DNA of 64,000 nucleotides from Bryobacteraceae bacterium (GTDB lineage: Bacteria; Acidobacteriota; Terriglobia; Bryobacterales; Bryobacteraceae), in contig JAHCHE010000035.1 in the NCBI GenBank assembly GCA_026129905.1, positions 1-64,000 of the forward strand, written 5' to 3'. The notes beneath the pieces were generated by a model. That model was given only the letters and a program-made list of their open reading frames with translations. It did not search any database and had not been told where the DNA came from. The translations under genes were made by a program, and so were the position numbers. This document shows, piece by piece, positions 4,088 to 33,277 of the stretch. How positions within the stretch are numbered: position 1 is the first letter of the stretch; each line of letters begins with the position of its first letter.

Positions 4088-4166
4088 GGCTCGGCTCGCT
4101 TCAGCGCCGGCTCGACTTTCTGCGCTGCAGAATGTCAGAATCTCAACCGCGACCGTCGGCGGATTC

Positions 4167-8508: not shown

Positions 8509-9940
8509 TGTCGTTCTCATTCGATGGCGGGGCGCCGCCGGACCGCGCGTCGGAGTCGTATTCGAGGCCCAACGAATCGGCCCTCGCGTTGTCGGCAGCG
8601 ATCTCCTCGTCGATGGCCTCGGCATCGTAGCCCTGCTCGGAGACCACCTCGGCGCGGCTCTTGAAGCCGGCGCGCACCGCCATCACCTGCGCCTTGATGT
8701 CTTTCAACGGATCGACCCAGGCGAAGCCCGGCGGAATCCACTTCGCCCCGGGTACATCGGCGGCAGCCTGGGGCAGTGCGCCACTGAGAATGGCCACCTG
8801 CAACCAGGCGCTCCAGATCGGCCGGCACATCTGGAAGACGATCACCTGGTGCTGGAACTGCTCGCAGCGGCGGCGGAACTCCAGCAGGCCGGCCCGGATC
8901 GAGGAGTAGTTCACGCCGGTGAGGTCGCCGGTCAACTGCTCGTAGGTGATGCCCATGCCGGCGGCGATCGAACGCAACTGGACCCGCATGAACGTCTCGT
9001 AGCTCGCGCCCACATCGGCCGGAGAGGAGAACGTCACATCCTCGCCGGGCAGCAGCACCTGCAGCGTGCCCGGCTCCAGGCCGGCGAGCGCAACGCCAGT
9101 CGCGTCCTGGCTGGTTTCGCCGAGCAGCGAATCCTGCGGGGCGTTCTTGGTGATGAAGCCGGCGAACATCGCCGCCGTCTTCTTGCGGACCAGTTCGGCG
9201 TCGTCGTACTGGTCCAGTTCGTGGAGCTTGATCAGCACGTGCGTCAGCCAGGGCTGCCCGCGGAGCTGGCCGGGACGCAACGGCCGGAACAGATGCAGCA
9301 CCGATTCCGCCGGCACGCGCGCCAACTCGGTTGAAGCGAGCGGATGGCTGGTGTCGCCGGGATGCTCCCGGTACAGGTGGTACGCGACCCTCTTGCCAAT
9401 GCCGTTGAACTCGATCCCGGCGCGGGTGTAGTTGCCGTTTTCCAGCTTGCGCGTCTCGCTGGAAGGCAGGTGCTCCGCTTCGAGCAATTGCAGTTGGAGC
9501 GGCACCGACAGGCCATCTTTGGGCAATCGCGGCCGCAGGCGGATGAAACACTCGCCGGCCTCCATCACCGAACGGCACGCCATCGCCTGCAAGCCATAGA
9601 AGTCCGTCAGGCCCGCGGCGTCGGCTTCGTCGGTCCAGCGCAGCCACAGCGCCTGGATCTGTTCCTTTGTGGCCGCGTCCGGATGCAGCGACTGCGGCTT
9701 GATGCCGGTGCCGATGCAATTTCCCACGAAGGCGTCGAGCGCGTTCGTGGCCCACGGGTTCCGCCGCACCATGTCCCGCGAGCGAGCGCGGAGCGTCTCG
9801 GCGCTGCGGAAGACGAGCGTGTTGATGTCGCTCGCTGGCGGCGTCCAGCCGGTGGTGCGCCGGGAGGCGGAGGCCGCTTCGTAATCGGCCGCCTCGAAGA
9901 AACGGGGCCACGCCTTCCGCAGCCGCTCGAACCATCGCAA
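8492..9940 (-). CDS. Portal protein, lambda gpB family
   Basis: 482 residues. Family features include NPWATNALDAFVGNCIGTGIKP near residue 60-82 (quoted in part), a LQLLEAEHLP motif, GIEFNGIGKRVAYHLYREHPGD, and VLHLFRPLRPGQLRGQPWLTHV in the middle, all characteristic of lambda-type portals. It forms the dodecameric ring at one capsid vertex through which DNA is packaged and ejected, and binds the terminase. It is encoded 2 bp after gpW and overlaps the protease start, so translation is likely coupled. Size (lambda gpB 533) is compatible. Confidence 0.92.
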   Translation of the reverse strand: MRWFERLRKAWPRFFEAADYEAASASRRTTGWTPPASDINTLVFRSAETLRARSRDMVRRNPWATNALDAFVGNCIGTGIKPQSLHPDAATKEQIQALWLRWTDEADAAGLTDFYGLQAMACRSVMEAGECFIRLRPRLPKDGLSVPLQLQLLEAEHLPSSETRKLENGNYTRAGIEFNGIGKRVAYHLYREHPGDTSHPLASTELARVPAESVLHLFRPLRPGQLRGQPWLTHVLIKLHELDQYDDAELVRKKTAAMFAGFITKNAPQDSLLGETSQDATGVALAGLEPGTLQVLLPGEDVTFSSPADVGASYETFMRVQLRSIAAGMGITYEQLTGDLTGVNYSSIRAGLLEFRRRCEQFQHQVIVFQMCRPIWSAWLQVAILSGALPQAAADVPGAKWIPPGFAWVDPLKDIKAQVMAVRAGFKSRAEVVSEQGYDAEAIDEEIAADNARADSLGLEYDSDARSGGAPPSNENDNDNPT

Positions 9941-9942
9941 CG

Positions 9943-10146
9943 TCAGAAGCCCTTCTCGGTGTACACCCGGATCTGCCGGATGGCCGTCCCGCCGCCGCTC
10001 CCGGCCAAGTCGGCTTCGGCGGCGGCAATCGCCGCTTTCAACTCATCGATGGTCCGGTATTCGATCTCGCGATCCGCGAAGCGGACTCGCCGGACGCCGT
10101 TGGCCAGAGCATCGCGCAGCGCCTGCAATTGTTGGTCCGTGTACAT
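9943..10146 (-). CDS. Head-tail joining protein gpW
   Basis: 67 residues, the length of lambda gpW (68). Sequence MYTDQQLQALRDALANGVRR, then RVRFADREIEYRTIDELKAAIAAAE shows the gpW alpha-beta-beta-alpha pattern. gpW seals the portal after packaging and is needed before tail attachment. In lambda gpW sits between the large terminase and the portal. Here the portal follows at once but the terminase lies 9 kb away, because an oppositely oriented 4-kb island and the methyltransferase block have been inserted. Confidence 0.88.
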   Translation of the reverse strand: MYTDQQLQALRDALANGVRRVRFADREIEYRTIDELKAAIAAAEADLAGSGGGTAIRQIRVYTEKGF

Positions 10147-10213: not shown

Positions 10214-10242
10214 TTGCTTTTTTCGGGAACCCGAGTGATGAA
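10214..10242 (+). promoter_or_regulatory. Repeated prophage promoter-like element, copy 0
   Basis: TTGCTT (10214-10219), 17 bp, then GATGAA (10237-10242), inside the shared sequence TTGC-N13-CCGAGTGATGAATCGT found four more times in this island. Unlike those, similarity stops soon after the -10-like box, and the downstream gene has a normal leader with AAAGGAG before ATG 10292. This supports a promoter role over a translated leader. Confidence 0.55.
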
Positions 10243-10291
10243 TCGTGTGGTGCCAGAGACAAGCACAAACGAAAAAGGAGAACAGAACACG

Positions 10292-10897
10292 ATGTTTACG
10301 ATTGATAACGAAAACATGATCCTGGCCGGCGCCTCCGCCGAGGAGGCTCAAATGGCTGGAGTCGAGGCCTTCGCCACCCAGAAGGAACTGGCGAAACTCG
10401 CCGCCAACTGGCCCGCCAGCCGCCTGGTGGAAACCTGGAACGGATTCGCCGGCGCGGTTCCGTTCGACGATTTGAAGCCGGTGAAGAAGTTCACCGACCG
10501 CAAAACGGCGGTCGCCCGGATCTGGTCGGCCATCCAACGCCTGAACGCGCACGTTGCGCCCCAGGCGTCCCAGGACGAGCCCGCCGAGGCGCCCGCGACC
10601 ACCGAGGCCACGCCGGAAGAGAAGGCCCCCAAAACGCCCAAGGCCTCGAAAAAGGCCAAACCCAAGAAGGAAGCCGCCGCCCCCAAAACCGCCCGCGAGG
10701 GCAGCAAGACCACCGCAGTCCTGGACCTGATCCGCCGCCCGGACGGCGCCACGCTCAGCGAGATCATGGCCGCCACCGGCTGGCAGAAGCACAGCGTGCG
10801 CGGCTTCATTTCCGGCGCGGTCGGCAAGAAGATGGGCCTCACGGTCGAGTCCTCGCGCCGCGAAGACGGCGAGCGCGTGTACCGGCTGGCCATCTAA
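10292..10897 (+). CDS. DUF3489 protein (201 aa)
   Basis: 201 residues from ATG 10292, chosen for the AAAGGAG upstream. The N-terminal ~85 residues are helical (TQKELAKLAANWPASRLVETWNG), followed by an Ala/Pro/Lys-rich linker (about 90-135) and a C-terminal winged-helix-like domain: SKTTAVLDLIRRPDGATLSE, then IMAATGWQKHSVRGFISGAV, then KKMGLTVESSRREDG. This C-terminal block is the DUF3489 domain, common in phages and integrated elements of G+C-rich bacteria and probably DNA-binding. It may regulate the island. An earlier in-frame ATG at 10238 would put the conserved element inside the coding region. A strong terminator follows. A 60-bp fragment of this gene recurs at 12831-12892. Confidence 0.8.
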   Translation: MFTIDNENMILAGASAEEAQMAGVEAFATQKELAKLAANWPASRLVETWNGFAGAVPFDDLKPVKKFTDRKTAVARIWSAIQRLNAHVAPQASQDEPAEAPATTEATPEEKAPKTPKASKKAKPKKEAAAPKTAREGSKTTAVLDLIRRPDGATLSEIMAATGWQKHSVRGFISGAVGKKMGLTVESSRREDGERVYRLAI

Positions 10898-10922
10898 CCG
10901 GAGGGACCGTGATGAACCAACC

Positions 10923-10955
10923 GCCGCCGGCCAACGCGCGCCGGCGGCTTTTTTT
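10923..10955 (+). terminator. Intrinsic terminator after the DUF3489 gene
   Basis: A perfect 9-bp G+C stem (10923-10931 with 10940-10948), 8-nt loop and seven T residues. It is followed after 18 bp by the next promoter-like element, so the cassettes are insulated from each other. Confidence 0.85.
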
Positions 10956-10973
10956 CTTCCGGTCCGATTTCCC

Positions 10974-11002
10974 TTGCAATCCCAGGCCACCCGAGTGATG
11001 AA
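10974..11002 (+). promoter_or_regulatory. Repeated prophage promoter-like element, copy 1
   Basis: TTGCAA (10974-10979), 17-bp spacer, GATGAA (10997-11002). The ATG of the next gene lies 15 nt after the first base of the -10-like box, so a transcript would start within about 0-3 nt of the start codon. No Shine-Dalgarno is present. An alternative reading is a five-codon leader ORF (10998-11015) whose TGA overlaps the ATG. Confidence 0.6.
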
Positions 11003-11011
11003 TCGTCGTGT

Positions 11012-11392
11012 ATGAAACAACCAAAGCAACGCCGCAAACCACACGGCCAGGTCCCCGCCGATATCGCCGGCCACGGCTTCGTCGCCGACCTGGAACACGA
11101 GATGTCGCAACTGGCCGCGGGATTCGGCATCCGCGTCCACAGGTTCCGGAAGAACGGCGACTGGTTCCTGGCCGTGCGCCTGCCGGACCGGGACGAGCTC
11201 GCCAGGATCGACCGCGACTCCACGGGCGAGGACGCGCCGGCGCAGACCATGACCGCCTCGACGGAGGGCGACGACAACTATCCGATCCACCTGGTCGTCA
11301 CCGGCGATGCCGGCCAGATCGAGTTCGAGGACGATGTCCCCAGCATTGAACTGGGCGATGCGTTCATTGACGTTCGGGTCGTCGACGGCTAA
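11012..11392 (+). CDS. Unknown prophage protein (126 aa)
   Basis: 126 residues, not recognised. A basic N-terminal 20 residues (MKQPKQRRKPHGQ) precedes a helix (FVADLEHEMSQLAAGFGIRV) and an acidic beta-rich half (IHLVVTGDAGQIEFEDDVPS). Overall strongly acidic, which for small phage proteins sometimes points to DNA mimicry or inhibition of a host protein, but there is no direct evidence. It starts immediately after copy 1 of the repeated element, which shares the codons for MK with the genes behind copies 2-4. A short hairpin without T-run lies at about 11428-11443, before the next gene. Confidence 0.6.
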   Translation: MKQPKQRRKPHGQVPADIAGHGFVADLEHEMSQLAAGFGIRVHRFRKNGDWFLAVRLPDRDELARIDRDSTGEDAPAQTMTASTEGDDNYPIHLVVTGDAGQIEFEDDVPSIELGDAFIDVRVVDG

Positions 11393-11465
11393 CCGCCGGC
11401 GCCCCGGCCTCGCCCGCGCCCGCCCGGCATAGGCGGGCTTAACGGCGTGAAAGGATCAAACGGCA

Positions 11466-11699
11466 ATGGATATCGATCTCATCAACGCCATCAACGCGCT
11501 GGCCGCGATATCGGATCAGCGCATGACCGACGCCTTGCGGGACGGCGACCCGGTCCCCTCCAATCCCGCGCTGCAACACACGCGCGACGCGGTGCGCAAA
11601 CGGGTGCGGGACCTCGCGGATCGCCTCAATCGCGCGGCCGACGCCGCGGAAGTCGCTTCGACAAACGCCAGTCTGGGCCTGCCGGAGGCTGCCCAATGA
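11466..11699 (+). CDS. Small helical prophage protein (77 aa)
   Basis: 77 residues, almost entirely helical: MDIDLINAINALAAISDQR, then TRDAVRKRVRDLADRLNRAADAAEVA. No family is recognised; it may form a coiled-coil oligomer. AAAGGA 12-17 nt before ATG 11466 could serve as ribosome binding site. Its TGA overlaps the ATG of the next gene (ATGA), so the two are translationally coupled. Confidence 0.55.
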   Translation: MDIDLINAINALAAISDQRMTDALRDGDPVPSNPALQHTRDAVRKRVRDLADRLNRAADAAEVASTNASLGLPEAAQ

Positions 11700-11905
11700 A
11701 AAAGGCCGGCGTCCAGATCAACGCGACCTACGCAGTCAGGATCGCCGGGCGCCTCGCGCCGGTCACGATCCTTCGCCGCTCGCCGGACGGCGGCTGGGTG
11801 GGGCGCAACGAGCGGACGGGCCGCGAGGTCCGCGTCCGCAGCGCTACCAAGCTCCTGCATCTATGCGCGCCGCACCCGCAACTCTTCTTCCATCGCGAAG
11901 GCTAA
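11696..11905 (+). CDS. Small beta-barrel-like prophage protein, paralog 1 (69 aa)
   Basis: 69 residues. Its first ~55 residues are nearly identical in pattern to the gene at 12180-12425: both begin MKKA-VQINATY, then V(R/K)-(I/V)-GRLAPV-IL, then GGWVGRN--TGREVR(V/I)RSA-KL. The alternating hydrophobic strands with GW and R-rich turn suggest a small SH3-like or KOW-like barrel that could bind nucleic acid. Function unknown. The C-termini differ (LCAPHPQLFFHREG here). Start ATG 11696 overlaps the previous stop. A terminator follows at 11907. Confidence 0.65.
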   Translation: MKKAGVQINATYAVRIAGRLAPVTILRRSPDGGWVGRNERTGREVRVRSATKLLHLCAPHPQLFFHREG

Positions 11906-11906
11906 A

Positions 11907-11936
11907 CCGCCAGGGTTGGCGGATGTTCTTTTTTCC
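11907..11936 (+). terminator. Probable intrinsic terminator
   Basis: Stem CCGCCA (11907-11912) with TGGCGG (11917-11922), 4-nt loop, then a T-rich tract with six T residues. It is weaker than the terminators at 10923 and 13377 but holds the same position ahead of the next promoter-like element. Confidence 0.55.
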
Positions 11937-11956
11937 TTTTGGACGTCCGATTTCCC

Positions 11957-11985
11957 TTGCAATTCCGGGCCACCCGAGTGATGAA
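11957..11985 (+). promoter_or_regulatory. Repeated prophage promoter-like element, copy 2
   Basis: TTGCAA (11957-11962), 17 bp, GATGAA (11980-11985), with the ATG of the next gene at 11995, again 15 nt from the first base of the -10-like box. The flanks (CCGATTTCCC upstream, CGTCGTGT downstream) match copies 1 and 3. Confidence 0.6.
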
Positions 11986-11994
11986 TCGTCGTGT

Positions 11995-12183
11995 ATGAAG
12001 CACTCAACAAAGCAGCACATGGTAGTAGTCAAGGCGAAGGACGGCTATGACGAGCACTTCGCCAACGAGGAGGCGGCATGGCAGTACATGGACTTGCACC
12101 GCCTCCCCAGGGAGGCCTACAAGGGGTGGAGGCTGGTTGAAACCAGCCCCGCCTGCCCCGCCGGATTGGAGGCTGTCCAATGA
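11995..12183 (+). CDS. Small prophage protein (62 aa)
   Basis: 62 residues: MKHSTKQHMVVVKAKDGYDE, then HFANEEAAWQYMDLHRLPRE, then AYKGWRLVET. It looks like a compact alpha/beta domain with aromatic residues; no family recognised. It starts right behind copy 2 of the repeated element and its stop overlaps the ATG of the second VQINATY paralog (ATGA). In the first cassette the partner gene ahead of the paralog is a different, helical protein, so only the second gene of the pair was duplicated or kept. Confidence 0.6.
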   Translation: MKHSTKQHMVVVKAKDGYDEHFANEEAAWQYMDLHRLPREAYKGWRLVETSPACPAGLEAVQ

Positions 12184-12425
12184 AAAAGGCCGACGTCCAG
12201 ATCAACGCGACCTACGTGGTCAAGGTCTCCGGTCGCCTCGCCCCGGTCAAAATCCTCCGCGAATCGCCGTACGGCGGCTGGGTGGGACGTAACGAGGGAA
12301 CGGGCCGCGAGGTCCGCATCCGCAGCGCCGCCAAACTTCGCCAGCCGTATCGTACCGGCAACGCGACGGCCTTCAATCGCGCCAACGTCGAGGGCGACGC
12401 CAGCACCGCCAACAGGGAGGAGTGA
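12180..12425 (+). CDS. Small beta-barrel-like prophage protein, paralog 2 (81 aa)
   Basis: 81 residues, paralog of 11696-11905: MKKADVQINATYVVKVSGRL, then APVKILRESPYGGWVGRNEG, then TGREVRIRSAAKL, followed by a unique 27-residue tail (NATAFNRANVEGDAST). Both copies are second genes of an ATGA-coupled pair. Retention of two copies with different tails within 500 bp suggests recent tandem duplication and diversification. Function unknown; an SH3-like nucleic-acid or protein adaptor is a guess. Confidence 0.65.
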   Translation: MKKADVQINATYVVKVSGRLAPVKILRESPYGGWVGRNEGTGREVRIRSAAKLRQPYRTGNATAFNRANVEGDASTANREE

Positions 12426-12431
12426 AACACC

Positions 12432-12755
12432 ATGGCGCGGGATGTCCAACGCGTTCAAACAACCGGATCGCCCGCCGAAGGCGTGGCCTTCCGCATCCGC
12501 AACGACGTCTATTCGTGGGAGCAGCCCGAGCGGCTGAATCGGGCGCTGGCGTCGCTGCTCAACCACTTTGGCCGGCATCGGTACGCCAACTACACCAGGT
12601 TCCGGAGGAGCCATACGGAAATCCAATGCACGCTCTTCCTTCTGAGCGCGCTGTCGCGCACGGGCAAGGCCGGTTATTTCGGCCTCATCGATTTGGACCA
12701 GGAATGGTCCGAATTCGGATGGATCAAGCACGAAGAGGACGACGCCGCAGCGTAG
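12432..12755 (+). CDS. Unknown prophage protein (107 aa)
   Basis: 107 residues, 6 bp after the previous stop with GGGAGG 15-20 nt upstream of the ATG. Sequence AFRIRNDVYSWEQPERLNRA, then LASLLNHFGRHRYANYTRFR, then TLFLLSALSRTGKAGYFGLI, then a very acidic end (DLDQEWSEFGWIKHEEDDAAA, part). Mixed alpha/beta, aromatic-rich, no family recognised. It ends the operon that starts with copy 2 of the repeated element. A degraded hairpin like the 10923 terminator follows at about 12776-12800. Confidence 0.6.
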   Translation: MARDVQRVQTTGSPAEGVAFRIRNDVYSWEQPERLNRALASLLNHFGRHRYANYTRFRRSHTEIQCTLFLLSALSRTGKAGYFGLIDLDQEWSEFGWIKHEEDDAAA

Positions 12756-12830
12756 GTTCCAAATCCCGCGCTCCCCGCCGCCGGCCACGCGCAGGCGGCT
12801 TTCTTGCTTCTGGGCGGCGCATCGCTCGTG

Positions 12831-12892
12831 GAAACGCCCACGTTGCGCCACAGGCCGCCCAGGACGCGCCGGAAGCGCCCGCCGCGACCATG
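12831..12892 (+). pseudogene. Fragment of a DUF3489 gene
   Basis: About 60 bp closely resemble 10543-10602 of the DUF3489 gene. Translated, NAHVAPQAAQDAPEAPAAT matches NAHVAPQASQDEPAEAPATT, then a TAG stop follows. Neither the upstream helical domain nor the C-terminal domain is present. It marks a past duplication or recombination within the island. It lies in the otherwise gene-free stretch 12756-13044. Confidence 0.7.
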
Positions 12893-12947
12893 TAGGCCAG
12901 CCGGAAGAAGAACGGCCCCAAATGGCCGTGGGGCGGCCGAAACCAAT

Positions 12948-12983
12948 CCCGCCGGCGGCGTCCGGCGCGCGGCGGCTTTTTCT
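12948..12983 (+). terminator. Possible imperfect terminator
   Basis: G+C-rich self-complementary sequence (CGCCGG 12950-12955 with CCGGCG 12962-12967, further GGCGG pairs possible) followed by a T-rich run at 12977-12984. It lies in the same place relative to promoter copy 3 as the clean terminators do to copies 1 and 4, but the stem is not clean. Confidence 0.4.
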
Positions 12984-13006
12984 TTCGATCCGGCGTCCGA
13001 TTTCCC

Positions 13007-13035
13007 TTGCAATCCCCGGCCACCCGAGTGATGAA
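13007..13035 (+). promoter_or_regulatory. Repeated prophage promoter-like element, copy 3
   Basis: TTGCAA (13007-13012), 17 bp, GATGAA (13030-13035), ATG at 13045. Nearly identical to copies 1 and 2 from the GTCCGATTTCCC upstream flank through the start codon. Confidence 0.6.
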
Positions 13036-13044
13036 TCGTCGTGT

Positions 13045-13344
13045 ATGAAGCACGCCATCAAAACCCCAAAGACCTACCGGAACGCCACGCCCGGCTTCGC
13101 CATCGAGATCACCGACGACACCGAGCTGGGTTCCGGCATCCTGATCGCCGTCGGAGACGGAAGGTACCAACCGCTCGGCGTCGTAATCAGCATTAATGAG
13201 GCGCGCGAAGTCGCCGACGACGACCTGCGCCGCCGCATGCGCGAACTGGAGGCCGGCGGCGAGCCGATGTGCCCGGAAAGCTACGTCGTGTGGGCGATGG
13301 GCCTCGAAGGCGAGTACCGCGAACTGAAGCGATTCAGGCTGTAA
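13045..13344 (+). CDS. Unknown prophage protein (99 aa)
   Basis: 99 residues: MKHAIKTPKTYRNATPGFAI, then EITDDTELGSGILIAVGDGR, then YQPLGVVISINEAREVADDD, then a charged helical end. The middle looks like a small beta domain with a GDGRYQPLG turn, and the C-terminal half is helical and acidic. No family is recognised. The first codons (MKHA) are part of the conserved start-associated element. Single-gene cassette: promoter-like copy 3 before it, terminator 13377-13407 after it. Confidence 0.6.
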   Translation: MKHAIKTPKTYRNATPGFAIEITDDTELGSGILIAVGDGRYQPLGVVISINEAREVADDDLRRRMRELEAGGEPMCPESYVVWAMGLEGEYRELKRFRL

Positions 13345-13376
13345 CGGCCCTTCGCACCCCAAGGTCCAAATCCACC

Positions 13377-13407
13377 GCCGCCGGTCCGACGCCGGCGGCT
13401 TTTTTTC
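13377..13407 (+). terminator. Intrinsic terminator
   Basis: Nine-pair stem (13377-13385 with 13391-13399, one G-T pair), 5-nt loop and eight T residues. Its arms GCCGCCGG and GCCGGCGGC are the same as those of the 10923 terminator, so the terminator is itself part of the repeated cassette. Confidence 0.85.
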
Positions 13408-13431
13408 TTTCGATTCGGCGGCCGATTTTCG

Positions 13432-13460
13432 TTGCAATTTCGGGCCAGCCGAGTGATTAA
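13432..13460 (+). promoter_or_regulatory. Repeated prophage promoter-like element, copy 4 (diverged)
   Basis: TTGCAA (13432-13437), 17 bp, GATTAA (13455-13460), ATG at 13470. In this copy the ATG of the five-codon leader ORF is changed to ATT, while spacer and hexamer geometry are kept, which favours a promoter over a leader peptide. Confidence 0.6.
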
Positions 13461-13469
13461 TCGTCATGT

Positions 13470-13739
13470 ATGAAGCACAACCCAACAGAACGCGCCGCGC
13501 GGATTGCGGAGGCCGCGATGGATCAGGTGTTCGGCGCAGACGAGACGAAGCCCGCCGGCGCCGCGAAACTGGCGAGGACGGAGGTCATCGAGATCCTCGG
13601 CCAGAAGATCCTGGACATCGAGACCCTGGAAACACGCAACCGCGACGGCCTCGATTTCTACGAGCTGGCGGTGTGGAAGATCCGCACAGCGCTCGAAGCC
13701 GCCTACGAGGCCGGTCTCGCCCAGGGAGCGCGGAAATGA
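13470..13739 (+). CDS. DUF6900-like prophage protein (89 aa)
   Basis: 89 residues: a helical N-terminus (ERAARIAEAAMDQVFG), a polar linker, then IEILGQKILDIETLETRNRD, then GLDFYELAVWKIRTALEAAY. The block LETR-x2-DxLDF-x3-AVW-x-(I/V)-xxALxAAYxAG is what I remember of the DUF6900 family, small proteins of unknown function on plasmids and phages. First gene of a three-gene chain, all joined by ATGA overlaps, behind promoter-like copy 4. Confidence 0.65.
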   Translation: MKHNPTERAARIAEAAMDQVFGADETKPAGAAKLARTEVIEILGQKILDIETLETRNRDGLDFYELAVWKIRTALEAAYEAGLAQGARK

Positions 13740-13942
13740 ACCACGACGCCTGGAAAGGCCAACGGATTGTCGACCAACCCGACTTCCGGACGTACCAGCC
13801 CGAGTGGGTGGCCGCCGGCAACGGAGAAGAGGTCCTCCTGCAACTGTGCGAGGAACTCGATCCCGAATCCCTTCGGTGGGAGCCGTTCTACGCGACGCTC
13901 GCGCGCCGTCAGAAACCGCAGGAGCAGAGGAATCAGCAATGA
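13736..13942 (+). CDS. Small prophage protein (68 aa)
   Basis: 68 residues, start ATG overlapping the previous stop. MNHDAWKGQRIVDQPDFRTY, then QPEWVAAGNGEEVLLQLCEE, then LDPESLRWEPFYATLARRQK. Helical and acidic in the middle; no family recognised. Translational coupling on both sides (13736-13739 and 13939-13942) argues that it is a real gene acting with its neighbours. Confidence 0.55.
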   Translation: MNHDAWKGQRIVDQPDFRTYQPEWVAAGNGEEVLLQLCEELDPESLRWEPFYATLARRQKPQEQRNQQ

Positions 13943-14148
13943 ACAGGAAACGCGCTGCGATCATCAACAACCTGGCGATGGACCAGACGATGATGGATCG
14001 CGAGAACGAAAGCGAGATCGCCGCCGAGGACGCGGCCAACATCAACCAGGCCAGTTTCCGGAACGAATGGGAACGCCGCCAGTTCAAGCACGACTACCGC
14101 CGCCACGCCCGGAACATCGCCGAAGGGAATCCGTTCTACGGACTCTGA
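13939..14148 (+). CDS. Small prophage protein (69 aa)
   Basis: 69 residues, strongly charged and helical: MNRKRAAIINNLAMDQTMMD, then NINQASFRNEWERRQFKHDY, then RRHARNIAEGNPFYGL. No family is recognised; charge pattern suggests a nucleic-acid or protein binding helix bundle. Last gene of the plus-strand island. Its 3' end overlaps by 13 bp the end of the oppositely transcribed holin-like gene. Confidence 0.55.
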   Translation: MNRKRAAIINNLAMDQTMMDRENESEIAAEDAANINQASFRNEWERRQFKHDYRRHARNIAEGNPFYGL

Positions 14149-14821: not shown

Positions 14822-15354
14822 GCGACTTCAAAAAGCGTGCCCTGATCCCGAGGAACCGCGCGAACAGATTCTGGTTTGGGAGACAGCACCGGACGCTTGC
14901 CTGAAAGAACAGCCAACACTGATTCAATAGGAAACTGATCTATGGTGCGTGTTCGCGCTGTCCGCCCCGAGCCGTGATGGCCCGGCGGTCGCAAATAAAT
15001 TGTTTGCAGAATTCGTCCTTCAAAAGGCAAATAGGCGATAATCCTTATGTCTAAGGCAACTAACGCAAGGATATCGAACTCGTCGTCAGCATATTGGCGC
15101 TTCCGATACTTGCCTGCCCTCCGCACGTGGTACAAGTAACCCGGTGTGTCTCCTTTACGCTGCGGCATTCTCTTCACTTCGCGACTCGATTTCACTTGGA
15201 CTCGATATAGCTTCCCTTCGTGGTCGACGACCGCATCATAAGGTAGGCCCTGATCGGTTAGATAGGCACGATACCCACACAGGATAAGATCCGCCACTAC
15301 GAGATGCTCGGCCGCTTTTCCGATTTCGAGATCTGTGATTTCGTCGGTGTTCAT
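14818..15354 (-). CDS. PD-(D/E)XK nuclease family protein (178 aa)
   Basis: 178 residues resembling the PD-(D/E)XK endonuclease group typified by intron-associated enzymes (Pfam PDDEXK_5). An N-terminal helix (EIGKAAEHLVVADLILCGYR), then LPYD40AVVDHEGKLYRVQ53VK55SS gives the D...(E/Q)xK core with the QxK variant. A basic region and the segment FDILALVALDIRIIAYLPFE follow. It is coupled to the upstream methyltransferase by an ATGA overlap. The gene is strikingly A+T-rich (about 40% G+C at 15001-15060, counted) compared with its neighbours, so it is a recent acquisition. It may form a restriction-modification-like pair with the adjacent methyltransferase, or be a homing-type endonuclease. Confidence 0.75.
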   Translation of the reverse strand: MNTDEITDLEIGKAAEHLVVADLILCGYRAYLTDQGLPYDAVVDHEGKLYRVQVKSSREVKRMPQRKGDTPGYLYHVRRAGKYRKRQYADDEFDILALVALDIRIIAYLPFEGRILQTIYLRPPGHHGSGRTARTRTIDQFPIESVLAVLSGKRPVLSPKPESVRAVPRDQGTLFEVA

Positions 15355-16610
15355 GCACAGGCCGCCGTTCTGGCTTGCGATATCTGGTCAAACGTCCGGC
15401 CATCCTTTTCTAAGATCGAGGCCTTACCGGTGAACGTCTGCCAGCGCCGCAAGGCGATGTCACAATAGCCCGCATTAATTTCTAGGCCGTAACAAATCCG
15501 CTTGATGGTCTCAGCCGCGATGATGCTGGTGCCGCTGCCGAGGAACGGGTCGTATACCACCTGGCCCGGACGCGAGTTGTTCAGCATGGGCCGGCGCATG
15601 CACTCGACAGGCTTCTGCGTGCCGTGACCGTGGCCGTCATCCTCGCGAGCGCTGATCTTCCACAGCGTGCTCTGCGAGCGGTCCCCGTTCCAATGTGCGT
15701 TGTTCCGGACCGCGTACCAGCAGGGCTCGTGCTGCCAATGGTAATTCCCGCGGCTTAAGGCGAACCTTTCCTTGGCCCAGATGATCTGGCTGCGGATCTC
15801 AAATCGGCATGCTTCGATGGACTGCTGCACTGTGGCCGCGTGCCTACCGGCGTGCCAGACGTACATCACGTCGCCTGGGAATAACGTCCAAGCCTCACGC
15901 CAGTCTGCGCGATCGTCATTCTCGACTCTTCCAAGCTTCGACTGGTTCTTATTTACCCCGGCATCGGCGCGCCATTCCGGATCGTACTCGACCCCATAAG
16001 GTGGATCTGTCGTCATGAGAATCGGGCATTTACCGTTCAGCGCCCGCTCGACATCGCTTGCCAATGTGGCGTCGCCGCACAGCAGGCGATGCTCGCCCAG
16101 GAGCCACAGGTCGCCCGGCTTGGTGACCGCCTCTTCCGGCTCCTCCGGAACCGCGTCCTCGTCCGTCAGGCCCTCGCGCTCGGCCTCCGGCTCAGCGAGC
16201 AGCGCTTCCAGTTCTTCATCCGAGAAGCCGACGATGTCGAGATCGAAGCCGTCTTCCTGCAGCGCCTGCAACTCGACGCGCAGCATCTCTTCGTCCCATC
16301 CGGCGCCTTGGATCGCCAGTTGGTTATCCGCGATTACCAGCGCCCGCCGCTGCGTTTCCGTGAGGCCGTTCAAGACGATCACCGGGATCTCTTTCATTCC
16401 CAGCTTCCGCGCCGCCTCGAGCCGAGCGTGGCCGGCGATGATGACGCCGTTCTCTCCCACAAGAAGTGGATTTGTCCACTTGAACTCCACGATCGAGGCA
16501 GCGATCTGCGCCACCTGTTCGTCAGTGTGGGTCCGGGCATTCCTGGCGTACGGCAAGAGCCGCTCCACCGGCCACATCTGGATCTGGTAGTTGTCGCGGA
16601 CCAGATTCAC
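15351..16610 (-). CDS. ParB-domain DNA methyltransferase, DPPY type (419 aa)
   Basis: 419 residues. Residues 10-100 are a ParB/Srx-like domain (RNARTHTDEQVAQIAASIVE; GVIIAGHARLEAARKLG; ADNQLA), a linker rich in Glu follows, then a beta-class methyltransferase: LWLLGEHRLLCGD at about 168-180, motif IV TDPPY at 201-205, and motif I YDPFLGSGTS near 362, ending in YCDIALRRWQTFTG. DPPY points to adenine-N6 modification. It overlaps the other methyltransferase upstream and the nuclease downstream by 4 bp each (ATGA). Prophages use such enzymes to evade restriction or to mark their DNA. Confidence 0.9.
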   Translation of the reverse strand: MNLVRDNYQIQMWPVERLLPYARNARTHTDEQVAQIAASIVEFKWTNPLLVGENGVIIAGHARLEAARKLGMKEIPVIVLNGLTETQRRALVIADNQLAIQGAGWDEEMLRVELQALQEDGFDLDIVGFSDEELEALLAEPEAEREGLTDEDAVPEEPEEAVTKPGDLWLLGEHRLLCGDATLASDVERALNGKCPILMTTDPPYGVEYDPEWRADAGVNKNQSKLGRVENDDRADWREAWTLFPGDVMYVWHAGRHAATVQQSIEACRFEIRSQIIWAKERFALSRGNYHWQHEPCWYAVRNNAHWNGDRSQSTLWKISAREDDGHGHGTQKPVECMRRPMLNNSRPGQVVYDPFLGSGTSIIAAETIKRICYGLEINAGYCDIALRRWQTFTGKASILEKDGRTFDQISQARTAACA

Positions 16611-18136
16611 GAGGCTTTCCCCTCGCGGCCGTAGCAGGGCATGCCGTTCGGCTTGCGGCGAATTGAGCGCGAATCCCGGCGGCGCAGGTCATCGACAGCA
16701 TTGATCTTTACGCCACGGGCTTCAGCGACGGCTGAGAACGCCTCACCGATCCCCGCCAAGGAAGGTTCTTCTCCGGTTAGGCTCCACATCCTGCGCAGGA
16801 CGACATCGCAATACGCCGGCGAGATCTCCACCCCGCAGCCGGCGCGATCGAGCACCGCGGCGGCCGCCATCGCCGAACCGCTGCCGAGAAATGGATCGAA
16901 GATCAGGTCGCCCGGATCCGAGTAGGCTTTCACGAAGAACTCCACCAGCGCGCGCGGAAACGGCGCTGAGTGCGATCCCTGGCTGCTCTCGGTCTTGGCT
17001 TCGATCACGTTCGATGGCCGTGCGATGCCGCGATACCGGCCGTCGCCGTCGCTTGCGCCGGGCTTGGCGGCGGCTTCTCCCCGCGCCCCCGTGCCGAGCA
17101 GTCCGCTTCCGGACGTGGACTTCGGATTATCCGGCGAGTACTCGAAGCAATCCTCGGAGACATGCCCCACCGCGTGAGGCCGAAACTTGATCTGCGATTG
17201 GCGGCAAAGATGAAACACCGGCTCCCAAGCGTTCTTGAAGCGATTGTTCCAGCCGCCCGGCACGCCGTTGTCGGTCTTGCGCCAGCACAGTTCATCCACG
17301 AACCGCCAGCCCCACTGCCGCACGTGCGCGATCACCAGGTCCTTCACGTACAGGTTCCGCTGCCCCTCGTCGGCGTGCTCCTTGATGTTCAGAAAGTACG
17401 AGCCGTCCGCGCCAAGACTCGATTCGATCATCGCGGCCACGCTCCGGTACCAGGCGACGTACTCCTCCGGCCGGATCGGCTTGAAGCCGCTCGTCGGGTC
17501 GTACTCGCGCTGCGTGGCGTAGGGCGGCGATGTAATGACCACATTCGCCTGCCGGCCATCGAGAAGCCTCCGAACCAGATCCTGGTCCCGGCAGTCGCCG
17601 CAGATCAGCCGGTGCGGACCGATGAGCCAGACGTCGCCAGGCTGGGTGACCGCAACCGCCGGCGCTTCCGGGATCTCCTCTTCGGCGGCGGTCTCCTCCT
17701 GCGCGTCCTCGACGCCGGCCAGCAGGGCCCGGAGCTCCTCATCCTCGAAGCCGGCCAGAGACAGGTCGAATCCATCGCGCTCCAACTCGGCCAACTCTTC
17801 AGCCAGCAAATCCTCGTCCCACCCCGATCCCTCGGCGAGCCTGTTGTCAGCCAGGATGTAGGCTCGCTTCTGCGTCTCGGTCAGATGTTCAAGGATCACA
17901 ACCGGGACCTCATGAAGCCCGAGCTTCTTCGCCGCCAGGAGCCGCCCGTGCCCGGCAATCACCCCCGCATCGGAATCCACCAGGATCGGCGCGTTGAAGC
18001 CGAACTCGACGATGGATGCGGCGATCTGTGCCACCTGCGCCTCCGAATGCGTGCGCGGGTTGCGCTCGTACGGCGCGAGGCGCTCCACCGGCCAGGCCTC
18101 GATGCGCCGCGCCATCTTTGCCGTCGTTGCCGTCAT
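16607..18136 (-). CDS. ParB-domain DNA methyltransferase, TSPPY type (509 aa)
   Basis: 509 residues from ATG 18136, which overlaps the stop of the preceding gene. ParB-like domain at residues 11-105 (RNPRTHSEAQVAQIAASIVE; GVIAGHGRLLAAKKLG), then a methyltransferase with VWLIGPHRLICGD at 169-181, motif IV TSPPY at 202-206 and motif I FDPFLGSGS near 427. SPPY is more typical of cytosine-N4 enzymes, so this and its downstream paralog probably modify different bases. The two share domain order and arose by duplication or successive acquisition. A longer reading frame upstream exists but would run through the preceding gene. Confidence 0.9.
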   Translation of the reverse strand: MTATTAKMARRIEAWPVERLAPYERNPRTHSEAQVAQIAASIVEFGFNAPILVDSDAGVIAGHGRLLAAKKLGLHEVPVVILEHLTETQKRAYILADNRLAEGSGWDEDLLAEELAELERDGFDLSLAGFEDEELRALLAGVEDAQEETAAEEEIPEAPAVAVTQPGDVWLIGPHRLICGDCRDQDLVRRLLDGRQANVVITSPPYATQREYDPTSGFKPIRPEEYVAWYRSVAAMIESSLGADGSYFLNIKEHADEGQRNLYVKDLVIAHVRQWGWRFVDELCWRKTDNGVPGGWNNRFKNAWEPVFHLCRQSQIKFRPHAVGHVSEDCFEYSPDNPKSTSGSGLLGTGARGEAAAKPGASDGDGRYRGIARPSNVIEAKTESSQGSHSAPFPRALVEFFVKAYSDPGDLIFDPFLGSGSAMAAAAVLDRAGCGVEISPAYCDVVLRRMWSLTGEEPSLAGIGEAFSAVAEARGVKINAVDDLRRRDSRSIRRKPNGMPCYGREGKAS

Positions 18137-18999
18137 CCGCCGCGCGCCAGCAGCCGCCACACGTTCTGATCGATCCGAGCCAGCGTCTCTGCCTGTTCCG
18201 CCGTCAGGCCGCCGCCCTCGGCCAGCCGGTTGTACTCCGACGACCGGTCGGTCCGGTACACCACCACGCTCATCGGATGGCCCAGAGAGAGCGCCTCCTG
18301 AGGAAACAACCGCCGGCATGGAATCGGGATCTCCGGCCGCGGATCCTGCTCGCCGGTATCCTGCGCGTGGCTCACCCAGCGCGGGCCTCCCGGCGTCGTC
18401 ACCCACTCGCCCGGCGCGCCAATGCCGTCTTTGTACTTCGCTTGGAGAAGCGCCGCCGCGCTGTGGTAATCCGATCCGATTCCGATCAGCCACTGCCGGC
18501 GCGTCTCGCCGCGCCAGTCAATGCCGAACGGACCGGTGACGAAGCTCGACTGCTCGACGACATTGCTCGCGCCAAGCTCGGCCGCGAGCGCCTGCGCCTC
18601 CGCCCGGCTGCACAGGATCGCGGGGCTGAGCGGCTGCGTCTTGCCGTCAGGCCCGACCACCACCGCCGGCGTGGGCGCAACGACGTACTTGGGATAGGCG
18701 TACTTGCCTGGCAGATTCGGCGCCGCCGCTTCACGCGCCGTGATCGCCAGCTTCTGAAACGACCGCGTCACCGGATCGAAGTAGTCGTACTGAACGATGT
18801 GAGTGTCCGGATCATCGACGCCCTCGAGCGCCGTCGTGTCGGCCCAGCGCTTGATCCTTCGCTGCTTGTCCCACGGCGGAGCCTGCGCGTCGAAGGCCTG
18901 CTCCCAGGTGAGCCGGTTGTGCCGATCGAACAGCAGCAGCCGGTCGATCGGATAGAACGGCTCATCGGGCAGACTCAGTTCTTTCGGTTTGCTGACCAT
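18133..18999 (-). CDS. Unknown phage late protein (288 aa)
   Basis: 288 residues from ATG 18999. Not recognised. The N-terminal third contains PIDRLLLFDRHNRLTWEQAF and ADTTALEGVDDPDTHIVQYD, then a PKYVVAPTPAVVVGPDGKTQ segment, and a C-terminal helix LTAEQAETLARIDQNVWRLL. No signal peptide or TM segment. It lies between the M15 peptidase and the methyltransferases in the late operon and overlaps the methyltransferase start (ATGA). The N-terminal part might be a catalytic domain, but I see no motif that names one. The upstream in-frame extension overlaps the peptidase and terminase genes and was not used. Confidence 0.6.
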   Translation of the reverse strand: MVSKPKELSLPDEPFYPIDRLLLFDRHNRLTWEQAFDAQAPPWDKQRRIKRWADTTALEGVDDPDTHIVQYDYFDPVTRSFQKLAITAREAAAPNLPGKYAYPKYVVAPTPAVVVGPDGKTQPLSPAILCSRAEAQALAAELGASNVVEQSSFVTGPFGIDWRGETRRQWLIGIGSDYHSAAALLQAKYKDGIGAPGEWVTTPGGPRWVSHAQDTGEQDPRPEIPIPCRRLFPQEALSLGHPMSVVVYRTDRSSEYNRLAEGGGLTAEQAETLARIDQNVWRLLARGG

Positions 19000-19019
19000 G
19001 TTGTTTTCCTTCACCCCGT

Positions 19020-19367
19020 TCAGCCGGTCCACGAGTAGCGGCGCTCGCGCACGTCGACATGGGTGTGACCCGCGTACGCGCCGATGCCCCGCAGGGCCGC
19101 GACCGCCCGGACTGCCGTGGCCACCGCCGCCGGCGTAAGCTCCGGAACGCGAATGTCGGCCGCTTGGCCGCGGAGATGGTAACTGTTGCGCGCGCCGCCC
19201 ACGGCCCGGTTGTGACCGGGGCACCGGAAGCCGCTCGCGACGATGATTGGGCGCATCACAATGGCGCGCAGGTCCTCCAACGCTGCGACCAAGCGCGGGT
19301 CCACCGCGTCGCGGCGGCAACAGGGGCAGGCGAACTCGTGCGAATCGAAATGGGCCGAGAGCTTCAT
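19020..19367 (-). CDS. M15-family peptidase, probable endolysin (115 aa)
   Basis: 115 residues from ATG 19367, 5 bp after terL. It is a compact peptidase M15A-type domain: SGFRCPGHNRAVGGA, then S62YH64LRGQAAD71 and H101THVD105, giving the zinc ligands H64, D71 and H103 and catalytic residues of D-Ala-D-Ala/L,D-endopeptidases. Cysteines at 14, 16, 17 and 49 may bind metal or form disulphides. Cleaves peptidoglycan crosslinks; here most likely the lysis enzyme, or a tail-less small virion enzyme. No signal peptide, so export would need a holin (candidate at 14136-14429). Confidence 0.85.
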   Translation of the reverse strand: MKLSAHFDSHEFACPCCRRDAVDPRLVAALEDLRAIVMRPIIVASGFRCPGHNRAVGGARNSYHLRGQAADIRVPELTPAAVATAVRAVAALRGIGAYAGHTHVDVRERRYSWTG

Positions 19368-19372
19368 AGGCG

Positions 19373-21199
19373 TCAGAACTGCCGCGCGCCCGATTGGATC
19401 CAGTTGCTCCGCAGCACGCGCCGCCCGGGCGGCGGACTCGGGATGTTGGGTTTCCCCGCCACGCTGCCTGGTTCCGGGCGCAATGCCTCGATCCGTTCCG
19501 CCTCGGCGTCCAGCCGCAGTCCCATGGAGACAAGGCCGCAGAGCGCTGCGTAAGCGTACACGCGCGCGTCCAGCGCTTCCGACCGGACGCCTTTCTTCTT
19601 CCGCCACTCCCGCACCGGCACGCCCCGCGAGTAGGTCGTCACCAGCGTCTCGGCCAGCAACTGCTCGAACCACCCGGCCGTCCGCTCTCGCGGGAAGTGG
19701 GAGTAACCCGGTCCGGCCTGCTCGATCTTCAGCCGCCCGTAGATGACGCTCTTCGCGCTGTCCACGCCCACGATCCACATCGGAGTCCGGTTGATGGTGT
19801 TCCGCGTCGGCTTCTTCGGCCACACCGGCAGGGGCCCGGACTTGCCCTTGATGGCCAGGATCCGCCGGCTGTAGCGGGTGCGGCAGAAGTCATAAACCGC
19901 CTGCGTGTGAAACCCTGAGTCGATGGCGCACGCCGCCACCGGCAGCGTGATCCCATACTCGTGCGTCCATTGGCGGCTCAGGTATTCATCGAGCGCCCGC
20001 CAGAGTTCCGGCGCGCTGGGATCGCCGGGAAACACCCGGTACTCGATCGACCACGACTCTTCGCCCCGGCCCCAGCCGACCAACTCCAGCTCGGCCCGAT
20101 CCAACTGCACATCCACGCCCGCGGTGAGCGTGCAAACCCCGGCAGGCAGCCGCGCGCCATAAGGCTCGCACCGCGTCAACAGCGACGCCGCATCGACGTG
20201 CGTCTCGGCTTCGTCGTCCCACAGTTCTCCCAGCGCCGTGTTGATGAACGCCCGCAGCGTCTCCGGGCCGCCGGCCTTCGCCTCCAGGAACTCCGCCGCC
20301 GTCTCCGGCCATTCCTTCCACGGCGAGTACAACTGCGAGATCCAGAACCCGGCGATCTTCGACTTCGGGTTCCCCGCGCGCCATTCCCCCCGCGCCAGCA
20401 TCCACGGCTTGCGGTACGGCGGAATCAGCGCCGCGCAATGCTCGCACCGATACCGCGCCTCCTCCGGTTGCCCCTCCGGCCACTCGACGTTCGGCCAGGC
20501 CAGCACCTGGAAGCGGCCGCATTCCGGACAAGGCGCCCAGAAGCGCGACCGGGTGCTCCTGAGCCACCAGGACTCGATGCGGCTTGCGCCCTTCACCGTC
20601 GGCGACGACACCAGCAGGATCTTGCGGTTCCACCAGGTAGTCGACCGCTTCACCGCCAGGCTGACCGGATCGCCTTCCGTTCCGGCCGACGCCGGATACC
20701 GGTCCACCTCGTCGAGCAGAACGAACCGGATCGGACGCATCGCCAAGCCCGCTGGACTGTTCGCCCCCGCGATCGTGATGCTGCCGCCCTGAAACTTCTT
20801 GTGCAGCACCCGGTTGTTCGAGTCCCGCGAGCGCACGTCGGCCACCTTGCCGCCCAGACAAGGCGTGTCGCGCAGCATCGGCGCCAGCCGGTCCTTGCTC
20901 CACGCTTCGCCATCTTCCACGCGCGGCTGCACCACCAGAATCGGGCCCGGATCCTGGTCGATGACGTAGCCGACGAACGAATTTAGGCACTCCGTTTTCC
21001 CAACCTGGCTCGACGACATGAACACGACCCGCTCATACGGGCTGTTCGGCGTCAGCGCGTCGAGGATCGCCCGTTGGTAGGGCGCGCGGTCCGTCCGCCA
21101 GTCGCCGGCCTCGGCTGATGCTTCCGACGACAGGCGGCGATTCCGATCCGCCCATTCGGCGACCGTGAGCCGCGGCGGCGGCTCGAGGGCTGCCGCCAC
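19373..21199 (-). CDS. terL: Terminase large subunit, lambda gpA family
   Basis: 608 residues. LTVAEWADRNRRLSSEASAE and the following GDWRTDRAPYQRAILDALT are typical gpA starts. ATPase: Walker A-like SSSQVGKTE at 62-70, Walker B FVLLDEVDR at 159-167, SSPTVKG (motif III) near 198. A CPECG...CEHC zinc element lies around 220-250. Nuclease domain: VDVQLDRAELELVGWG near 360, and later AIDSGFHTQAVYDFCR. It translocates and cuts DNA at cos sites. A GTG start at 21199 is assumed; no ATG lies upstream before the terS stop. Confidence 0.93.
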   Translation of the reverse strand: MAAALEPPPRLTVAEWADRNRRLSSEASAEAGDWRTDRAPYQRAILDALTPNSPYERVVFMSSSQVGKTECLNSFVGYVIDQDPGPILVVQPRVEDGEAWSKDRLAPMLRDTPCLGGKVADVRSRDSNNRVLHKKFQGGSITIAGANSPAGLAMRPIRFVLLDEVDRYPASAGTEGDPVSLAVKRSTTWWNRKILLVSSPTVKGASRIESWWLRSTRSRFWAPCPECGRFQVLAWPNVEWPEGQPEEARYRCEHCAALIPPYRKPWMLARGEWRAGNPKSKIAGFWISQLYSPWKEWPETAAEFLEAKAGGPETLRAFINTALGELWDDEAETHVDAASLLTRCEPYGARLPAGVCTLTAGVDVQLDRAELELVGWGRGEESWSIEYRVFPGDPSAPELWRALDEYLSRQWTHEYGITLPVAACAIDSGFHTQAVYDFCRTRYSRRILAIKGKSGPLPVWPKKPTRNTINRTPMWIVGVDSAKSVIYGRLKIEQAGPGYSHFPRERTAGWFEQLLAETLVTTYSRGVPVREWRKKKGVRSEALDARVYAYAALCGLVSMGLRLDAEAERIEALRPEPGSVAGKPNIPSPPPGRRVLRSNWIQSGARQF

Positions 21200-21215
21200 C
21201 TGCTCGGCGCATTCT

Positions 21216-21731
21216 TCAATGGCGTTGATAGCGGATCTCCTCCTGCAGGCCGCGCAAGATCGCCGTCATCTCCGCGTCCAGCAGGTCTCGGATGTCTTTC
21301 GTGTCGCCCAGCGCCGCCAACTGCGGCGCGAGCTTCGCCGGCATCGCCAGCAGCTTGTCCCGGATCGTGCGCGCGATGGTGAACCACTTCACCTTGACCT
21401 CGTCGGCGCCGATGAGCTTGCCGGTCCGGGTTTCGAATTCCAGCTTCTTCAGCCGCGCCCGGAACACCATCTCCGCCGTTCGCGCTTGCGCGAAGCTGGC
21501 GCCGGAAGCGCCCGCCACGCTCTCGACAGCCGGCCGCGTTACGCTCGGCGACGTTTCGTGCGTCTCGAAGTCAACAGGTTTGTCGTCGAGAACGGCGTCG
21601 CTGGCGGCCACATCCACGAGCTTGCCCCGCATCACGAGGATGCCGCGCTTGGCTAACCGGCTAATGTGGGAACGGTTTACGTCGCGGCGCCGCGCATAGG
21701 CGGCCTGCGTCATCAGCCCCGGCTGCTCCAT
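21216..21731 (-). CDS. terS: Terminase small subunit, Nu1-like
   Basis: 171 residues. N-terminal winged-helix/MerR-like DNA-binding segment (TQAAYARRRDVNRSHISRLA; KRGILVMRGKLVDVAASDA), a polar linker, then helices ARTAEMVFRARLKKLEFETR and KWFTIARTIRDKLLAMPAKL that form the oligomerisation and TerL-binding part. This is the layout of lambda Nu1-type subunits, which recognise the packaging site. terL starts 16 bp downstream. A cos site should lie just upstream, in or near 21732-22420, but I cannot identify it. Confidence 0.85.
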   Translation of the reverse strand: MEQPGLMTQAAYARRRDVNRSHISRLAKRGILVMRGKLVDVAASDAVLDDKPVDFETHETSPSVTRPAVESVAGASGASFAQARTAEMVFRARLKKLEFETRTGKLIGADEVKVKWFTIARTIRDKLLAMPAKLAPQLAALGDTKDIRDLLDAEMTAILRGLQEEIRYQRH

Positions 21732-22934: not shown

Positions 22935-23012
22935 TGGTCGGGCCGCCGGGATTTGAACCCGGGACCTCTTGCACCCCAAGCAAGCGCGCTAGCCAGGCTG
23001 CGCCACGGCCCG
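22935..23012 (-). tRNA. tRNA-Pro (anticodon GGG), CCA encoded
   Basis: On the minus strand a full cloverleaf: acceptor CGGGCCG with CGGCCCG, D-stem GCGC/GCGC, anticodon stem CTTGC/GCAAG with loop TTGGGGT (anticodon GGG), T-stem CCGGG/CCCGG with loop TTCAAAT, discriminator A and an encoded CCA. Its 3' end faces the prophage, as expected when a phage integrates at a tRNA 3' end. Confidence 0.95.
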
Positions 23013-32380: not shown

Positions 32381-33277
32381 TCACGCCTTCGGGTGGGCCT
32401 TGTCGTAAACCGCCATCAAGTCGGCGAGGGACACCTGCGTGTACTTCTGCGTGGTGGAGAGCCTCGCGTGGCCGAGCAGTTCCTGGATTGAGCGCAGGTC
32501 GGCGCCATCCGCCAGCAGGTGCGTGGCAAACGCGTGGCGCAGGCTGTGCGGATGCAGCGCCGCGTCGCCTGTCAGCATCGTGGCGTAGAGCTTCACGATA
32601 TTGCGCACGCCGCGGTCGGTCAACCGCCGGCCGCGGTGATTGACGAAAATCGCGCGCTCGCCGGGCGCGGCGGAGCGTTCGGCAAGGTAACGTTCCAGCG
32701 CGGCGGCGGCTTTGACCGGGAAGGGGACTTGCCGTTCCTTGCGGCCTTTACCCCGCACGCGGAGCCAGCGTTCGCCGAGGTCGAGGTCCTCCAGGTCCAG
32801 CCCGGCCAGTTCGCTCACTCGCAGTCCGGCGCCGTACAGCACTTCAAAAATAGCGACGTCGCGGCGGGGGTGCGCCTGTTTCAAGTCGGCTTCCGACACC
32901 AGGTCGAGCAGGCGGTTCGTCTGCTCGGCGCTCATTACGCGGGGCAGGGTCTTCGGCGCTTTGGGCGTGCCCACCAGCTTCGCCGGGTTCGCGCCCACGA
33001 CGCCTTCGCGTACCAGAAATTGGAACAACGACCGGACAGCGGCCAACTTGCGCCGGATGGTAACCGCGGAGAGTCCCTGCCGGTAGAGGCCGCCCATCCA
33101 TTCGCGAATCGACAGGACGTCCAGCTCGCCGGCGGCTGGGCAGGTTCCTTCGGGCAGCGTGAAGTAGTCCAGGAATTGGCGCAGGTCCGCTCCATAGTTC
33201 CTGATGCTATGGGGAGACGCGTTCTCCCGACGCAGCTCGCCGAGAAAACGCCCGATCTGCTCGCCCAGTTCAGACAT
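32381..33277 (-). CDS. xerC: Tyrosine recombinase XerC
   Basis: 298 residues from ATG 33277, typical XerC length. N-terminal SAM-like core-binding domain (FLGELRRENASPHSIRNYGA; GLSAVTIRRKLAAVRSLFQF) and a catalytic domain with R in GAGLRVSEL, K in RGKGRKERQVP, HSLRHAFATHLL (H-x-x-R), LGHARLSTTQKYTQ (H and the Tyr nucleophile). With XerD it resolves chromosome dimers at dif. Directly downstream of and overlapping trmFO by 8 bp, the order trmFO-xerC found in several phyla, which argues that it is the housekeeping recombinase and not a phage integrase. Confidence 0.92.
   Translation of the reverse strand: MSELGEQIGRFLGELRRENASPHSIRNYGADLRQFLDYFTLPEGTCPAAGELDVLSIREWMGGLYRQGLSAVTIRRKLAAVRSLFQFLVREGVVGANPAKLVGTPKAPKTLPRVMSAEQTNRLLDLVSEADLKQAHPRRDVAIFEVLYGAGLRVSELAGLDLEDLDLGERWLRVRGKGRKERQVPFPVKAAAALERYLAERSAAPGERAIFVNHRGRRLTDRGVRNIVKLYATMLTGDAALHPHSLRHAFATHLLADGADLRSIQELLGHARLSTTQKYTQVSLADLMAVYDKAHPKA

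Follow-up and report, generated by a model that had tools for sequence, protein, structure and literature searches.

The Streptomyces phage phiC31 carries several near-identical phage-specific early promoters, each of them behind a terminator, and lambdoid phages harbor morons, small cassettes of the late region that come in variable number with their own promoter and terminator. In cluster K mycobacteriophages, a 13-bp start-associated sequence (SAS; GGGATAGGAGCCC) that contains a Shine-Dalgarno core is found at the ribosome-binding site, leaving 3-7 bp to the ATG, and has been proposed to act in translation (PMC3203893). The class I and II intergenic repeats of the halovirus HF2 have been identified as promoters by reporter assays (PMC8707807). 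Here we analyze a stretch of 64,000 nucleotides from a Bryobacteraceae bacterium (Acidobacteriota; contig JAHCHE010000035.1, positions 1 to 64,000; hereafter the window), in which a two-part element, TTGC-N13-CCGAGTGATKAATCGT, occurs five times ahead of small genes in a prophage. The sequence of the element and its surroundings indicates that one large group of temperate phages infecting Bryobacterales and related bacteria very probably uses it as a dedicated promoter. This confidence applies to the promoter itself, and not to its pairing with the sigma factor considered below.

The element resembles the SAS in being a short phage-specific repeat placed just before start codons, mostly in one orientation. 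It differs in having no Shine-Dalgarno sequence of its own and in being followed by leaders of varying length, and GGGATAGGAGCCC is absent from the plus strand of the window; the likeness to mycobacteriophages put forward in the original prediction is thus not supported. With the HF2 repeats it shares the recurrence of a virus-specific intergenic sequence ahead of genes, although those are archaeal TATA-type promoters of unrelated sequence and host. The early promoters of phiC31 are similar in being near-identical and in following terminators, but sequence, host and gene block differ. The cassettes, with their own promoter and terminator anatomy and 1-7 element copies per record, recall lambdoid morons, from which they are set apart by a single shared promoter type, a block conserved as a whole, a conserved first gene and a conserved counter-orientation. 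We found no earlier description of the element in the literature, of which part was covered.

All five copies reported at the outset were found, with TTGC starting at 10214, 10974, 11957, 13007 and 13432 and with no more than one mismatch, compared with a chance expectation for the window of 2.6 sites at up to three mismatches. The right half is an exact CCGAGTGATGAATCG at 10231, 10991, 11974 and 13024, has one mismatch at 13449 (GATTAA), and is preceded in each copy by TTGC 17 nt upstream. In four copies, as had been noted, the distance between the G of GATGAA or GATTAA and an ATG is exactly 15 nt: these are copies 2-5 (ATG at 11012, 11995, 13045 and 13470), which have no Shine-Dalgarno sequence and of which copies 2 and 5 also have no in-frame upstream start. 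Copy 1 instead has its ATG (10292) at an offset of 55 nt, preceded by the Shine-Dalgarno sequence AAAAAGGAG. Two further statements had to be amended. Extended flanking similarity, attributed to copies 1-3, belongs to copies 2, 3 and 4, which share 68-69 of 95 nt pairwise and only 47-50 with copy 1. Terminators, placed ahead of copies 1, 2 and 4 with a weaker candidate ahead of copy 3, are strong before copies 2 and 5 and weaker before copies 3 and 4; the gene 5' of copy 1 runs on the opposite strand, and that copy has no plus-strand terminator before it.

Conservation in the element extends over an A/T-rich stretch, then CTTGCYTT and, beyond a 17-bp spacer, GAGTGATGAATSG, with a purine and then TG downstream. 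Columns that the search pattern specified are bound to be conserved, but the A/T positions at -37 to -33, CTTGCYTT and the downstream purine and TG lie outside it and are conserved as well. The 17-bp separation of the two boxes is constant in 149 of 151 sites, in counts that, like those below, treat related phages as independent and yield statistics to be used as guides only. The 17-bp spacing falls within the 16-18 bp of sigma-70 superfamily promoters. With the conserved purine, 11 nt beyond the G of GATGAA, as the transcript start, TTGC would begin at -34 and GATGAA at -11, and the start would also be placed as in such promoters (5-9 nt after the second box). It departs from the housekeeping consensus TTGACA/TATAAT in its -10 box, GATGAA, which is devoid of the final T of TATAAT. 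No match to a known RNA element was found in Rfam.

The distribution of the element points in the same direction. The 8.57-Mb genome of the bacterium was searched by patterns and by stretches, and the right half (up to two mismatches) returned seven sites on one strand only, five in the window and two on a second contig (C33), to which a longer pattern added one site on a third (C1), near a second DUF3489 gene. All eight convincing sites thus fall on three contigs with prophage genes. Across 257 genomes of the order Bryobacterales, the right half alone (up to one mismatch) occurs in 43, compared with a few matches in total for the reversed control pattern; in the stretches retrieved, 35 of 60 unique matches have TTGC exactly 13 nt upstream and no other offset accounts for more than three. 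The full, correctly spaced element is present, by our own count, in about 17 genomes. Among viral contigs at least 120 stretches carry it, and more than half of the 41 matches in species genomes are from Acidobacteriota. With a weight matrix, 176 distinct contexts score above 20, the best reversed-sequence control reaching 9.9, and in whole viral records of 23-86 kb the motif is found almost solely at the block described here. Several matches to the 16-mer in other genomes, among them L011 and L013-L021, lack TTGC and were attributed to chance. Matches in Lachnospiraceae (L074, L087, L088, L102, L103) appear to represent one unrelated conserved site.

Terminators and leaders provide further evidence for a promoter. 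Intrinsic terminators precede 44 of 67 later, inter-cassette copies (25/32 and 19/35) and only 5 of 85 first-gene copies, compared with 54 of 3000 random stretches (1.8%). First-gene leaders begin with a stem-loop in 66 of 71 cases, counted per sequence because MAFFT could not align the hairpins, against 25% in shuffled sequences and 10 of 57 in the other classes. The stem arms covary, as seen in GCGG/CCGC, TGCGC/GCGCA, GACCG/CGGTC, GGTCG/CGACC and GCAGGA/TCCTGC. A weaker form of the element followed by a leader hairpin (GGTCG-aacga-CGACC) also stands ahead of an integrase-like gene (L055:4103). Leaderless-type sites account for 37 of 163, and most of the remainder carry a leader, which nearly always includes a Shine-Dalgarno sequence. 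At 12 leaderless-type sites elsewhere GAGGTG lies 2 nt from the ATG, too close for normal use, and its proximity makes these sites less clear as leaderless. One protein family is preceded 13 times by a leaderless-type start (ATG at 15/16) and 23 times by a short leader with a Shine-Dalgarno sequence (ATG at 28-30); its N-termini align by eye across both leader types. The original prediction of leaderless cassettes is hence supported for copies 2-5, and sites of this type recur elsewhere; since copy 1 and most sites carry leaders, the same promoter appears to yield two kinds of transcript, of which the leaderless is one. The more general proposal of a phage-specific promoter is strongly supported by this anatomy, by the rigid spacing, the location after terminators, the conserved initiation region and leader hairpins, and the confinement to prophages, all of which can be read from the sequence.

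Transcription from the element would then proceed as follows. RNA polymerase and a specificity factor would bind TTGC at about -34 and GATGAATSG at about -11, 17 bp apart, and begin transcription roughly 11 nt past the G of GATGAA, at the conserved purine, driving a counter-oriented block of small genes set within the late operon. The leader of the first gene, which encodes a DUF3489 protein, would comprise a 5' stem-loop and a Shine-Dalgarno sequence. At each later cassette a terminator would cut off transcription and another copy of the element restart it, the new transcript beginning either with a short Shine-Dalgarno leader or with an ATG 4-5 nt from its start; the latter, effectively leaderless type would apply to copies 2-5 of the window. 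A dedicated specificity factor is likely, because the -10 box is not sigma-70-like. Phage sigma factors are known in general (PMC9429907), and some of the phages concerned encode a protein with sigma region 2 (family A2). All eight members of this family match the RNA polymerase sigma factors of phrog_1740, five of eight contain Sigma70_r2 (best 3e-8) and two of eight a weak region 4 (0.0023). In a Foldseek search with a medium-confidence structural model (predicted local distance difference test, pLDDT, 68), the top PDB matches were extracytoplasmic function (ECF) sigma factors (best 3.5e-4). Two open reading frames (ORFs) of Wolbachia phage WO annotated as hypothetical (L353:19911-20408, L354:17899-18393) are weakly similar to this family (22-25% identity).

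Co-occurrence is the basis on which we tentatively propose the phage-encoded ECF-like sigma factor, rather than a DUF3489 activator or a host sigma factor, as the reader of the promoter; the pairing of a PHROG 1740 member with this promoter is suggested here. In the genome under study, the two best sigma matches, well clear of the remainder, lie on two contigs with prophages: an open gene on C1 (C1:309087-309575), 14 kb from the C1 motif, and a gene on C33 (C33:24678-25178), 12 kb from the motifs of that contig. Linkage was also assessed without selection on the motif: of 40 regions fetched around sigma genes, 26 spanned at least 11 kb, and 13 of these score above 13, about 12 of which look real, with reversed controls at or below 8.3. 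A Spirochaetales contig carries sigma and motif 2-3 kb apart, and the association at the genome level is 11/17 versus 36/240. These data show that the same phages often carry both the sigma gene and the promoter. On the other hand, several observations weigh against the proposed system, beyond the treatment of related phages as independent. The C33 sigma gene carries one internal stop codon (TGA), the contig of the window, whose prophage is truncated, has no sigma gene, and neither do most motif-carrying viral records, which may be fragments. Motif-bearing and motif-lacking regions are not separated in the sigma tree, which contains no motif-bearing clade, and RNAalifold on the MAFFT alignment of the leaders, in which hairpins were misaligned, gave no structure. 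Finally, DUF3489 is found in 18 of 20 motif records, a linkage at least as tight as that of sigma.

Among the alternatives, the same promoter might be read by a host sigma factor, either a sigma-70 tolerant of a poor -10 box or one of the numerous host ECF factors, with no phage factor needed. The spacing and -35/-10 geometry are typical of bacterial RNA polymerase, and the copies in the window reside on a contig with no phage sigma. Yet the GATGAA box is atypical, TTGACA-N17-TATAAT is enriched in the host genome (138 sites versus 44 for the reversed pattern), and a scan for sigma-70 promoters found none in the block. Convincing copies on prophage-bearing contigs only are unlike a host regulon, and conservation over some 45 bp is far above that usual in host promoters. 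We therefore regard this explanation as unlikely, if still worth considering.

The element could also be a binding site for DUF3489, acting as an autoregulated activator or as a repressor whose operator overlaps a promoter. The gene lies directly 3' of the first copy in most phages, and its product has a predicted C-terminal winged helix, a K/A/P-rich linker and a basic tail (structure model, Foldseek). Nonetheless, the conserved parts of the element correspond to promoter elements and a start region, and the element is not clearly palindromic. Two copies persist in the C33 prophage although DUF3489 has been lost there, and in Acidithiobacillus phage AcaML1 DUF3489 occupies the same place but the motif is absent; both observations speak somewhat against an activator. 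Its tight linkage leaves DUF3489 some chance of being the activator, but as an account of the element this reading seems rather improbable. AcaML1 (L234:2632-4750) shows the same order of small terminase, DUF3489 block on the opposite strand and methylase, and has its own repeat of about 50 bp near starts (L234:3420-3470 and 4101-4150).

That the element is a translation signal of the SAS kind or a recombination boundary, as the fixed ATG distance of copies 2-5 and the long flanks common to copies 2-4 (as after recombination or duplication) might suggest, is highly improbable, given that the ATG distance elsewhere ranges from 15 to about 58 nt by leader type, that the element has no Shine-Dalgarno sequence and a TTGC half at rigid spacing, and that terminators stand just 5' of it, so that upstream RNA would mostly not contain it. 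Three further candidates were rejected: a sigma-54 promoter (-24/-12), since TTGC is present but there is no GG at -24; an operator palindrome (ATGA-atcg-TCAT), which most window copies do not retain; and an integron-like or att site, which misfits the relations to start codons, terminators and leaders.

The window includes the late region of a lambda-type prophage, with genes for major head protein, decoration protein, protease, portal, gpW, methyltransferases and terminase on the minus strand. Between gpW and the methyltransferases, the five copies head a block of small plus-strand genes (Table 1) that runs against the terminase-portal operon; apart from DUF3489 in first place and a later DUF6900 gene, most of these genes have no family match. 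In 79 of the 83 cases that show the terminase large subunit, its gene is located upstream of the block and on the opposite strand; the window and C33 are two of the four exceptions, with terminase on the other side of the block. In C33 (L008 10900-12250, L280) a deletion extends from the portal gene into the block. The window prophage stops at about 21,860, ahead of tRNA-Pro (22935-23012) and host genes; because of this abrupt end and of the failure to find early or replication genes on that side, it is probably defective. No annotated relatives of these phages were matched at the DNA level. The ParB-methyltransferase genes at 15351-18493 adjoin each other and are apparently duplicated; they are doubled in many related phages too. 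An integrase-like gene lies on the minus strand at 32381-33520, in host-side sequence about 10 kb past the prophage end.

Table 1. Features of the counter-oriented block and its neighbors in the window.
Feature	Position	Strand	Basis
Portal and gpW-like head-tail adaptor, late operon	8517..10146	-	family searches
Putative promoter copy 1 (TTGCTT...CCGAGTGATGAATCGTG), leader type	10214..10247	+	sequence and motif search
Copy 1 leader: stem-loop GTGC-cagagacaa-GCAC, then Shine-Dalgarno	10249..10291	+	stem-loop scan, sequence
DUF3489 protein, first gene of block	10292..10897	+	Pfam DUF3489 2e-25; structure model, Foldseek
Intrinsic terminator before copy 2	10923..10955	+	9-bp GC stem and T7
Putative promoter copy 2, leaderless type	10974..11011	+	sequence and motif search
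Cassette 2: ORFs 11012-11392, 11466-11699, 11696-11905	11012..11905	+	no clear family match
Weaker terminator before copy 3	11907..11935	+	terminator scan
Putative promoter copy 3, leaderless type	11957..11994	+	sequence and motif search
Cassette 3: ORFs 11995-12183, 12180-12425, 12432-12755	11995..12755	+	ORF list, family searches
Weak candidate terminator ahead of copy 4, a GC-rich stem with T tract	12950..12985	+	terminator scan
Putative promoter copy 4, leaderless type	13007..13044	+	sequence and motif search
Cassette 4: 99-aa protein	13045..13344	+	by-eye likeness to two-leader family (e.g. L115, L113)
Intrinsic terminator before copy 5	13377..13409	+	terminator scan
Putative promoter copy 5 (GATTAA variant), leaderless type	13432..13469	+	in-frame stop 12 nt upstream
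Cassette 5: DUF6900 protein (13470-13739), ORFs 13736-13942, 13939-14148	13470..14148	+	DUF6900 match
Two ParB-methyltransferases, terminase GpA, small-terminase-subunit candidate	15351..21731	-	family searches

Acidobacteriota are among the commonest soil bacteria and their phages have been little studied; the element provides a sequence signature with which one common group of these phages can be marked in metagenomes. The analysis also names a candidate sigma-promoter pair. More tentatively still, the ECF-like sigma factor and its strongly conserved promoter might constitute a private transcription system of a widespread group of soil phages, switching on a counter-oriented cassette block within the late operon through two interchangeable transcript starts, one leaderless and one with a 5' hairpin and a Shine-Dalgarno sequence. 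The same promoter would feed leaderless and Shine-Dalgarno mRNAs of one gene family, offering a natural set in which the costs and gains of leaderless translation may be compared.

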